DNA of 64,000 nt from contig NZ_KE384321.1 in the NCBI RefSeq assembly GCF_000425165.1, forward strand, positions 130,235 through 194,234, given 5' to 3'. This DNA comes from Photobacterium halotolerans DSM 18316 (GTDB lineage: Bacteria > Pseudomonadota > Gammaproteobacteria > Enterobacterales > Vibrionaceae). Position 1 is the first letter of the stretch; each line of letters starts with the position of its first letter. This document shows, piece after piece, positions 33,359 to 37,110 of this stretch. Below the pieces are notes generated by a model. That model was not told where the DNA came from. It ran no database searches and saw only the letters and a list, made by a program, of their open reading frames with translations. Both the position numbers and the translations under genes were made by a program.

Positions 33359-33395
33359 GTGTCTGTCCCGTCACACAACCATGTCTGTCCCGTCA
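33359..33395 (+). repeat. Two tandem TGTCTGTCCCGTCA repeats
   Basis: GTGTCTGTCCCGTCA at 33359-33373 and ATGTCTGTCCCGTCA at 33381-33395, direct repeats with a 22-base period, immediately after the terminator. They resemble the GTGTCTGTCCTT repeats that flank the transposase-like gene near 35 kb, differing in the CCC-G core. Probably a sister subfamily of the same extragenic repeat. Confidence 0.75.
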
Positions 33396-34766: not shown

Positions 34767-34875
34767 GAATATCTTCAGCAAATACAGTAACGGCATAATA
34801 CGCTAATTCGCACCGTTTTACCGAAATAGATGGCCAGGCGACAATAAGGACCATTTTGGGATGTACCAGCGATGT

Positions 34876-34966
34876 ACCGGGACAGACACGTCAACAGTCG
34901 TACCAGAACCAGTCGTACAAGGACAGGCACATGAGATTTTGACATCAGTTCTACAAGGACAGACAC
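34876..34966 (-). repeat. Left cluster of three GTGYCTGTCC repeats (minus orientation)
   Basis: ACCGGGACAGACAC (34876-34889), ACAAGGACAGGCAC (34917-34930) and ACAAGGACAGACAC (34953-34966). Their complement is GTGYCTGTCCTTGT, the same unit that appears in plus orientation after the transposase-like gene. Each is preceded by a related short motif (AGCGATGT, AGTCGT, AGTTCT then AC). Spacing between copies is about 36-41 bases. Confidence 0.8.
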
Positions 34967-35060
34967 CTGAAGAAAAAAACAACGTCATCAATTTCATGAG
35001 ATTCTGACCCAGATCCCCACTTCGTGATTTGCTCCTTTTTTCGGCCAGCACAGACATATA

Positions 35061-35076
35061 CTGTATATTCATCCAG
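35061..35076 (+). promoter_or_regulatory. LexA-like box before the RAYT gene
   Basis: CTGTATATTCATCCAG fits the gammaproteobacterial SOS box CTGT-N8-ACAG with one mismatch (CCAG for ACAG) and has the usual TA before it and an AT-rich core. It ends 20 bases before the ATG, a normal operator position. Repression by LexA is inferred. Confidence 0.62.
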
Positions 35077-35096
35077 CTCAATTGTTGTGACTCCCA

Positions 35097-36053
35097 ATGA
35101 CGACAGCACGCAGCCAACTTATCAGTATAGAAGCTACGCCCTACTACCATTGTGTTTCCCGCTGTGTTCGCCGCTCCTTTCTTTGCGGCTACGATGAACT
35201 GACCAAGACCAGCTATGAACACCGGCGGGGGTGGGTTGAGAAACGCTTGAAACGGATTGCCAGTGTCTTTTGTGTGGATGTTTGCGCCTACGCCATTATG
35301 AGCAATCACTACCATGTCGTTCTGCATATCAACAAGGATCAGGCCCACCGCCTCTCGAACCATGAAGTTATAGAGCGCTGGCTCACCTTACATCGCGCCC
35401 CTGTGCTGATTCAGCGGTTTTTAAAGCACGAAGCCTTATCCGAGGCCGAACAGTCTGCTTGCTTAACCATCATCAAAACCTGGCGCGAGCGGCTTTGTTC
35501 CATCAGCTGGTTCATGCGCCTGCTCAATCAGTACATCGCCAGCAAAGCCAATCAGGAAGACGACTGCACTGGCCACTTTTGGGAAGGTCGCTTCAAAAGC
35601 CAGGCATTGCTGGATGACAATGCTTTAGCTGCCGCCATGGCGTACGTCGATTTAAACCCGATCCGGGCCGGTATCGCGGAGACACCGGAAACCTCCTCCT
35701 ACACTTCCGTAAAAGCGCGCATTAAATCGCGTCAAAAGAACGAAACAACGGCGCCCAATCTGTTTCCCTTTGCAGGCACCTCGCGTAACAACATGCCTGA
35801 AGGACTGCCTTTTCACCTATTCGATTATATTGAACTGGTTGAGTGGACCGGACAGCAAATCAGGGAAGGAAAACATCACCATATCCGCTCTACGCAGCAT
35901 CCCATCCTTGAACGGCTCGGTTTACACTCTGATGTGTGGCTGAATATCTGCACCAAAATAGAAACAGGCATCCTCATTGGCACAGCCTCATCAATTCAAG
36001 CCGTTTTGCCGAAATTGAACCGGCAACGACGAACGGGTTTACAGATCCCTTAA
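35097..36053 (+). CDS. REP-associated tyrosine transposase (RAYT, Y1/IS200-like)
   Basis: HUH-family single-strand DNA nuclease of 318 residues. The Y1_Tnp domain covers about 8-175: N-terminal TPYYHCVSRCVRRSFLCG, the metal-binding HUH motif in MSNHYHVVLH (His71, His73), a candidate catalytic Tyr146 in FMRLLNQYIASKANQED, and GHFWEGRFKSQALLDDNALAAAMAYVDLNPIRAGI typical of RAYTs. About 125 residues follow that are absent from IS200 transposases and are basic at the end (LNRQRRTGL). RAYTs are domesticated relatives of IS200/IS605 that act on short extragenic repeats. Here the gene is flanked by inverted copies of one repeat and has a LexA-like box. No frameshift. No passenger gene or IS ends were identified. 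Confidence 0.88.
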   Translation: MTTARSQLISIEATPYYHCVSRCVRRSFLCGYDELTKTSYEHRRGWVEKRLKRIASVFCVDVCAYAIMSNHYHVVLHINKDQAHRLSNHEVIERWLTLHRAPVLIQRFLKHEALSEAEQSACLTIIKTWRERLCSISWFMRLLNQYIASKANQEDDCTGHFWEGRFKSQALLDDNALAAAMAYVDLNPIRAGIAETPETSSYTSVKARIKSRQKNETTAPNLFPFAGTSRNNMPEGLPFHLFDYIELVEWTGQQIREGKHHHIRSTQHPILERLGLHSDVWLNICTKIETGILIGTASSIQAVLPKLNRQRRTGLQIP

Positions 36054-36190
36054 CCCATTCACAGCAAACAGATCCTCAACAGCGATACATTCGTATGCTG
36101 CTGCTCGCCTGGAAATCATGCCAGAGGCATACAATCTGACTTTGCATTCCAACACGCTGTAAATCAATACTTTTAACGGACTTTAAAAAC

Positions 36191-36212
36191 CCTTCACCGA
36201 ACTCAGTGAAGG
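36191..36212 (+). terminator. Possible terminator of the RAYT gene
   Basis: Seven-base stem CCTTCAC / GTGAAGG with an eight-base loop. The tail is only moderately T-rich (GGCTTTATCTTTT, some bases away), so strength is uncertain. Confidence 0.45.
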
Positions 36213-36234
36213 ATCTGCTGGCTTTATCTTTTGC

Positions 36235-36350
36235 ATGACTGTCCTTAGTTGCATTTTTTAATGTGTCTGTCCTTGTAAATCGATTAACGTGACCAGATTA
36301 ATGTGCCTGTCCTTATAATTCACCCCAAGCATTAACGTGACTGTCCTTCT
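36235..36350 (+). repeat. Right cluster of four GTGNCTGTCCTT repeats (plus orientation)
   Basis: ATGACTGTCCTTA (36235-36247), GTGTCTGTCCTTGT (36263-36276), GTGCCTGTCCTTAT (36303-36316) and GTGACTGTCCTTCT (36337-36350). Copies 3 and 4 share a preceding ATTAAYGTG and a following TAAAT-like tail. Orientation is opposite to the left cluster, so the RAYT gene sits inside an inverted arrangement. Confidence 0.82.
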
Positions 36351-36357
36351 AAATCAG

Positions 36358-37110
36358 TTAATCGACAAACAGCTCATCAAGCATGGGTTGGGGGTTATTC
36401 AGAAACGCTTTCGTAATCGCGTAGTGTTCCGTCTCTTCATATCTCACCGGGTGAATACCGGACGGGCCAATCTGATAAATCAGAGCGCCGGGATACGCCA
36501 TGATCATGGGTGAATGGGTAGCAATAATGAATTGTGATTGATCCTGAACCAGCTGATGCATTCGACTGAGCACCGACAGTTGGCGCATAGGGGATAAAGC
36601 AGCTTCAGGCTCGTCCAGTATATATAAGCCCTTACCGCCAAACCGCTCGACCATTAATGACAGAAATGACTCACCATGCGACTGGTGATGAAGGGATACG
36701 CCACCGTATGAATCAATCACAGGCGGCCCGAAACCTGGCGCTTCGTCCAGTTCATCAATATGGGTCGAGACATTGTAAAAACTTTCAGCCCGGAGAAAAA
36801 AGCCGTCCTTATAACGCCTGAACGACTTGTTGTAGCGGATAGACTTATACAATTCAGAATGCGTACTTCGGGTCGAGAAATTGAAATTCTTCGTTCCCCC
36901 TTCTGCGTTGAACCCCATACCGACAGCAATGGCTTCCAGCAAGGTTGATTTGCCGCTGCCATTTTCACCGACAAAAATTGTGACCTCCGGGCTGAAGTCG
37001 ATTTTATCCAGGCCTTTTACTGCCGGAATACAAAACGGATAATGACCAAAAGAGTCAATTTTCTCTCGTTTCAGCTGAATATCTCTTAAGTACGGTAAAG
37101 GTTCCATCAT
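36358..37110 (-). CDS. AAA family ATPase (COG3910-like)
   Basis: Soluble ABC-type/SMC-like ATPase of 250 residues. Walker A VGENGSGKST (about 47-56), a signature-like loop HGESFLSLMVERFGGKG (about 145-160), Walker B GLYILDEPEAALSP, and the switch His in FIIATHSPMIMAYPG. There is no coiled-coil insert and no nuclease (TOPRIM) domain, so it is not an OLD or RecF protein. The target is unknown; such lone ATPases sometimes belong to defence or stress modules, but I see no partner gene here. It is transcribed toward the RAYT repeats, and its stop codon lies ten bases from the last copy. Confidence 0.85.
   Translation of the reverse strand: MMEPLPYLRDIQLKREKIDSFGHYPFCIPAVKGLDKIDFSPEVTIFVGENGSGKSTLLEAIAVGMGFNAEGGTKNFNFSTRSTHSELYKSIRYNKSFRRYKDGFFLRAESFYNVSTHIDELDEAPGFGPPVIDSYGGVSLHHQSHGESFLSLMVERFGGKGLYILDEPEAALSPMRQLSVLSRMHQLVQDQSQFIIATHSPMIMAYPGALIYQIGPSGIHPVRYEETEHYAITKAFLNNPQPMLDELFVD

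Follow-up and report, generated by a model that had tools for sequence, protein, structure and literature searches.

We analysed a 64,000-nucleotide stretch of the Photobacterium halotolerans DSM 18316 genome (the window; positions 130,235 to 194,234 of contig NZ_KE384321.1), in which a gene for a Y1 HUH transposase is flanked on both sides by outward-pointing copies of a short repeat, TGNCTGTCC. We suggest, with a probability of about 0.6, that gene and repeats belong to a small autonomous mobile element whose enzyme recognises a core at the element ends, and that nicking after the core primes local copying that gives rise to arrays. The element would consist of the transposase gene with a 9-nt core (TGNCTGTCC at the window locus) at each end, the two copies in inverted orientation. 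We infer that the enzyme contacts this core and cuts one strand immediately 3' of it, so that the ...TCC end carries a 3'-OH and the 5' flank is linked to the tyrosine; the nick would serve transposition and would also misfire. In a misfire the 3' end would be extended briefly into the flank, slip back onto the end sequence, be extended again and be rejoined, each event adding a tandem copy of the flank together with part of the end and, where the duplicated unit holds a whole core, a further outward core. Arrays would arise in this way beside the gene and, in trans, at lone cores elsewhere.

The gene, the cores and the probable element lie in the window as follows.

35097..36053, plus strand: Y1 HUH transposase gene, 318 aa, with NHYH at residues 70-73, FWE at 161-163 and the presumed catalytic Tyr183 in YVDLNP
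34957..34965, minus strand: left end core TGTCTGTCC, innermost
34921..34929, minus strand: left array core TGCCTGTCC
34880..34888, minus strand: left array core TGTCTGTCC, outermost
36236..36244, plus strand: right end core TGACTGTCC, innermost
36264..36272, plus strand: right array core TGTCTGTCC
36304..36312, plus strand: right array core TGCCTGTCC
36338..36346, plus strand: right array core TGACTGTCC, outermost
34957..36244, no strand assigned: probable minimal mobile element, about 1.29 kb from one innermost core to the other, placed on the analogy of 22 TGGCTGTCC loci and of paralog boundaries (below)
33360..33390, plus strand: head-to-tail pair of TGTCTGTCC cores (33360-33368 and 33382-33390) without a transposase gene; a single core stands at the counterpart in two relatives

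All seven TGNCTGTCC copies point outward from the gene at 35097-36053, so that the three left and four right copies in opposite orientation described by the original prediction, a first reading of the letters of this DNA, are confirmed. The 14-base unit that it had named is a real repeat, slightly imperfect in that the leftmost copy has CCCG at its end instead of CCTT and the first right copy starts with ATGA. The 9-base core occurs 16 times in the window, nine of these at the locus or the pair at 33360-33390, against a mean of 2.2 and a maximum of 7 in 200 order-1 Markov sequences. With up to one mismatch, GTGNCTGTCCTT has seven matches in the window, six of them at the locus (0.95 expected; at most 4 in 100 shuffles). 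On the opposite strand the window core reads GGACAGNCA.

The innermost repeats have the appearance of mobile-element ends. At 22 TGGCTGTCC loci from one clade the DNA inside the core is conserved and that beyond it mostly unrelated, and the distance from core to gene is near-constant on each side in 21 of the 22. Among 28 close paralog pairs, 11 were inspected for homology boundaries; the left boundary falls 0-11 nt outside a core in eight of these and the right boundary in five. Outward polarity, near-constant distance and unrelated DNA beyond the cores argue for element ends rather than hairpin repeats of the repetitive extragenic palindrome (REP) type. The repeats might instead be operator sites for the transposase itself or another protein, kept for regulation, and left cores do lie upstream of the gene, with further cores between other genes; but cores also stand downstream, with outward polarity on both sides and at the ends of homology, which makes this explanation very improbable. 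In four sets of end pairs (21, 15, 13 and 39 pairs), target-site duplications were no more frequent than expected from mispaired ends. Candidate empty sites in Photobacterium (L065), Enterovibrio (L168/L245) and Pseudoalteromonas CF6-2 show places without the element, none of them readable at base resolution on both sides: the L065 flanks are about 77% identical in most relatives, and the Enterovibrio loci hold several stacked elements, with one left junction readable. The joined flanks of a V. penaeicida pair were absent from the one other genome searched. In E. norvegicus an element starts inside a stretch that is continuous without it in E. baiacu (L245 1400-1540 against L168 960-1120), where elements and fragments are stacked.

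The cores do not behave as palindromes. Folding of 214 copies from four core sets (57, 60, 37 and 60 copies out of 57, 75, 37 and 143) gave no hairpin, with mean z-scores of -0.02 to -0.37, in agreement with the original prediction that the repeat is unlike a classic palindromic REP, and no GTAG foot adjoining the core appeared among the top outward k-mers. The AT-rich arms beside the core are weakly palindromic by average composition; their pairing is above that of shuffled partners by 0.034 or less in three sets, and in one genome, G057, by 0.068 (0.446 against 0.378), the only set in which the excess is clear. The transposase itself scores 40.8 bits against the NCBIfam model REP_Tyr_transpos (NF047646), under the cut-off of 80. 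A classical REP-associated tyrosine transposase (RAYT) with palindromic REPs, for which the nearest solved structure to the predicted fold, E. coli TnpA-REP, would speak, is contradicted by these folding and cut-off results and is hardly credible.

By its motifs the gene, which had been called a RAYT, is not one in the strict sense and fits TnpA-Y1 subclass 2.3 (PMC6006769). It shares with that subclass the HuH motif NHYH at residues 70-73, WE, YVDLNP at 183-188, a length (318 aa) near 325 aa, an additional stretch between HuH and Tyr, and several diverged copies per genome, here four. The HuH-to-Tyr spacing is 113 residues, against about 61, counted by eye, in a subclass-2.1-like protein. Residues N70, H71, H73, W162, Y183, N187 and P188 are invariant among 42 proteins. 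Searches with the transposase gave no match in a PDB sequence-profile search up to E 10, none in PHROGs up to E 0.1 and none in phage records.

We considered whether gene and repeat belong together beyond this locus, and they do. The source genome (4.69 Mb, 53 contigs) holds four gene copies, whose proteins are 100, 98, 83 and 61% identical to that of the window. Each of the four is flanked left and right by outward cores, and a few nearby cores point inward. The gene is present in 23 of a first set of 60 genomes, comprising the source genome and 59 relatives, among them Photobacterium salinisoli (G069), P. arenosum (G031), P. galatheae (G018) and Photobacterium sp. GJ3 (G035). Partial gene matches are common across the set. 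The highest number of matches, 37, is in G057, where 19 of 20 fetched loci (L102-L121) have a usable reading frame and L114 has none. Contigs of P. arenosum end within element copies (L144, L145, L149), so that copy numbers in draft genomes are probably too low. A motif-free search for outward-biased 8-mers in 600-bp flanks returned CTGTCCTT in the source genome (13 outward, 0 inward), TGGCTGTC in G001 (22 to 0) and G011 (21 to 0), GCCTGGCA in G057 (21 to 3) and other 8-mers elsewhere; no clear motif came out of seven genomes that had one or two loci each.

A validation set of 66 loci from Vibrionaceae, Saccharospirillaceae and others was kept out of 78, after 11 Photobacterium loci (L152-L157, L162, L182, L186, L189, L229) and the truncated locus L181 had been dropped before counting. 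In this set a strict core pattern occurs 152 times outward and 12 times inward, on both sides of the gene at 40 of the 66 loci, and a generic pattern 194 times outward and 37 inward. Core variants in relatives follow TGN[C/G]TG[T/G]CN, and the protein groups within G057 mostly have their own variant, TGCCTGGCA and TGGGTGGCG among them. On a tree of 93 proteins the core letters require fewer changes than in every shuffle, the shuffle comparison being the only use made of this quick tree with its long branches; such tracking is expected if the protein recognises the core. Of the self-maintaining repeat/transposase unit in the original prediction, the association of repeat and gene thus stands, with core letters that follow the protein tree, and the protein may maintain the repeats.

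A second line of evidence comes from the junctions. Tandem repeats of the flank often follow directly on the core; most have a period of 7-20, the longest 54, and the duplications start at the core's last base. The duplicated unit often takes in the last letters of the end, which are lineage-specific: TCC, or GCG or TCT where the core ends so. Such duplications stand at 32 of 122 ends in a discovery set, against 48 of 2580 control positions; these ends come from the 14 of 21 genomes that were assigned a core pattern after the 8-mer search (the seven left out being those without a clear motif), and since the patterns were assigned beforehand this set is not independent. In the validation set, where one generic pattern was used, the counts are 31 of 99 ends against 67 of 3598 among random controls and 39 of 2328 among controls placed after TCC. 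The combined count, in which a slightly looser pattern gave 102 validation ends, is 63 of 224 against 83 of 4977. Two such duplications lie in the left array of the window; neither they nor the core pair at 33360-33390 had been noted in the original prediction.

34895..34918, minus strand: tandem duplication directly outside the core at 34921-34929, GTACGACTG twice, period 15; single copy at the P. arenosum counterpart
34860..34878, minus strand: tandem duplication directly outside the core at 34880-34888, GGTACATC twice, period 11; one similar copy, GGTATATC, in P. arenosum

The same footprint is seen at a different core. CTG[AT]CCC ends, beside genes related to the subclass-2.1-like protein, occur 58 times outward and 5 times inward at 28 loci, with duplications at 10 of 34 ends against 16 of 1020 controls. 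A first look at 19 other Y1 loci, some of which recur in the 28-locus set, gave 5 of 13 against 11 of 680 (usable frames at 19 of 30 and 28 of 30 loci, respectively). At one subclass-2.1-like gene (L262, G125:C12) there are four outward CTGACCC copies per side, and those displayed lie within a longer near-identical repeat, GAAACAATTGTTCTCTGACCCG.

The main rival to a direct role of the enzyme is that the repeats are recognition ends and the arrays come from ordinary replication slippage between short repeats. Duplicated units often start and finish in the same few letters, as slippage would have it, and some arrays have long homologous units (a period of 44 in L250 and about 120 bp in a P. shioyasakiensis record, below). 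Duplications at the core's last base are, however, far above the rate elsewhere in the same flanks, and we regard slippage as possible but doubtful.

Comparison of related genomes suggests that arrays change in place, and many of the extra copies resemble local tandem duplicates more than REPs inserted one by one. The window element's site is also occupied in P. salinisoli, G062 and P. arenosum, each with two left and three right cores where the window has three and four; the P. arenosum counterpart is split over two contigs, each ending in the element. Compared with P. arenosum, two more tandem copies follow directly on cores in the window. G062 carries five copies of TCTTGATG(C/T) after a core. 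Of two records named P. shioyasakiensis, which share 89% identity along the stretch, one has in its left array a tandem copy of about 120 bp that the other lacks. The lone core pair at 33360-33390 sits, with no element there, between genes for a chemotaxis receptor and a methyltransferase. It corresponds to one core in P. salinisoli and G062, and P. arenosum has a second, altered copy; the stretch is nearer to P. arenosum (92% identity, against 84 and 88%), so the single core is probably the older state. An AAA ATPase gene (Pfam AAA_15, AAA_21) at 36358-37110 adjoins the right array of the window element.

Head-to-tail arrays without the gene are found between genes, and these might be scars of serial insertion next to existing cores, with the gene later lost and the stacked ends remaining. 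Stacked elements and fragments do exist (several in a row in L245), partial gene matches are common, and the spacers of the L249 and L252 arrays are not clearly alike, although those in L250 and L253 are. Against serial insertion, the spacers in the counted duplications repeat local flank sequence, a tblastn search with the protein for a gene remnant in 11 array stretches gave nothing convincing (best E 0.05), and the pair at 33360-33390 stands, without an element, where two relatives have a single core. We consider this origin of the arrays unlikely. One array in P. galatheae (L250 1376-1560, G018:C45) has five cores with an exact 44-bp period, in a 3.5-kb stretch with no transposase match.

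We counted pairs of the pattern CTGTCCN{10,40}TGNCTGTCC in 52 congeners, with the reversed pattern as control. The 18 congeners with a gene match have 207 pairs against 30 in the control, and the 34 without the gene 33 against 23 (one-sided rank test p 2.4e-4, only a guide as the genomes are related). Six genomes with the window-type core account for 171 of the 207 (24 in the control), and the other twelve have 36 against 6. The source genome has 32 pairs against 7, of which 19 lie beyond 1 kb of any gene copy. The small excess of pairs over the control where congeners lack the gene also argues against slippage. We tentatively extend the proposal to Y1 HUH transposases of two subclasses with different cores, which could be local array makers that nick in trans at any core copy, the arrays growing in place without transposition.

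Several observations weigh against our proposal. Most ends (161 of 224) have no such duplication at the core, and in 26 of the 66 relatives no core is recognisable on at least one side, some of them near contig ends. The right homology boundary lies inside the element in 6 of the 11 paralog pairs, and the 97% paralog of the window gene has DNA homology only over 34941-36166, its right limit about 70 bp short of the right core. The paralogs of some pairs share 5-19 nt outside the core, and several Enterovibrio copies have a CCGCTTT stretch in common there; the cut may therefore lie further out, or some flank may travel along. The inverted ends are inconsistent with the same-strand scheme of IS608. 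Four genomes (G029, G030, G034, G060) have the gene and no pair of the searched pattern, and 13 of the 32 source-genome pairs lie within 1 kb of a gene copy, so that part of the link between gene and pairs is automatic. Single GTGNCTGTCCYT sites are hardly enriched in the source genome (27 against 19 for the reversed pattern), and a longer single-site pattern gives 2 against 2. The expectation that repeat number would follow gene presence is thus borne out for pairs across congeners, with gene-side pairs counted in, and hardly for single cores in the source genome.

The origin and spread of REP-like repeat families are poorly understood, and the observations bear on the roles of TnpA-REP relatives: a subclass reported without REP-like repeats has end repeats that co-vary with the protein. 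The core-last-base duplications are a footprint that can be counted in any genome and that predicts where the nick falls. If these transposases are local array makers, they would offer a route from chance sites to REP-like families, and genomic duplications would show where the enzyme nicks. As far as the literature was searched, in the parts of it available, the end repeats of subclass 2.3 and the duplications at junctions in two subclasses appear to be new. Known kinds already include inverted repeats beside Y1 genes (TIRtrons) and the pairing of repeat and protein (REPtrons). Among the matches listed, we found no report of junction duplications at TIRYT/TIRtron, REPtron, subclass 2.3 or HUH systems, and for the repeat letters the 30 titles listed out of 63 and out of 231 were all unrelated.

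Quentin et al. 2018 (PMC6006769), who defined subclass 2.3, report in the available text that automatic and manual searches found no REP-like sequences for subclasses 2.1 and 2.3; unlike the subclass as described there, the present elements have inverted end cores, arrays and junction duplications. The enzyme is predicted to share the Y1 fold of the IS200/IS605 family (IS608, ISDra2), from which the elements differ in that no hairpin was found at the cores, to which folding was confined, and in that the ends are inverted copies. As in TIRYTs/TIRtrons (Di Nocera et al. 2013, PMC3733652), a Y1 gene has on both sides inverted repeats that bear no relation to GTAG REPs, many of them in dimers or clusters. 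The TIRYT motif GGGGWSAS, common to some terminal inverted repeats only, reads STSWCCCC on the other strand and fits CTGACCCC beside subclass-2.1-like genes, whereas the window-type core TGNSTGTCC does not fit it. The 26 TIRYT examples were placed in subclasses 2.1, 2.2 and 2.5, not 2.3 (PMC6006769), and the TIRYT description (PMC3733652), in its available portions, makes no mention of junction duplications, in contrast to the cores here. With REPtron/RAYT systems (PMC6006769, PMC8266576) the elements share an HUH Y1 enzyme, a flanking repeat family of its own, dispersed repeats and co-variation of repeat and protein; unlike those systems they have no hairpin, and most of the dispersed copies stand head to tail. 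TnpA-REP is reported to cut single strands, mostly between C and T, after which the 5' end is linked to the tyrosine and the 3'-OH may be transferred or serve as a primer for replication (PMC8266576). A nick after ...TCC, followed by short extension, slip-back and rejoining, would give the units observed here.
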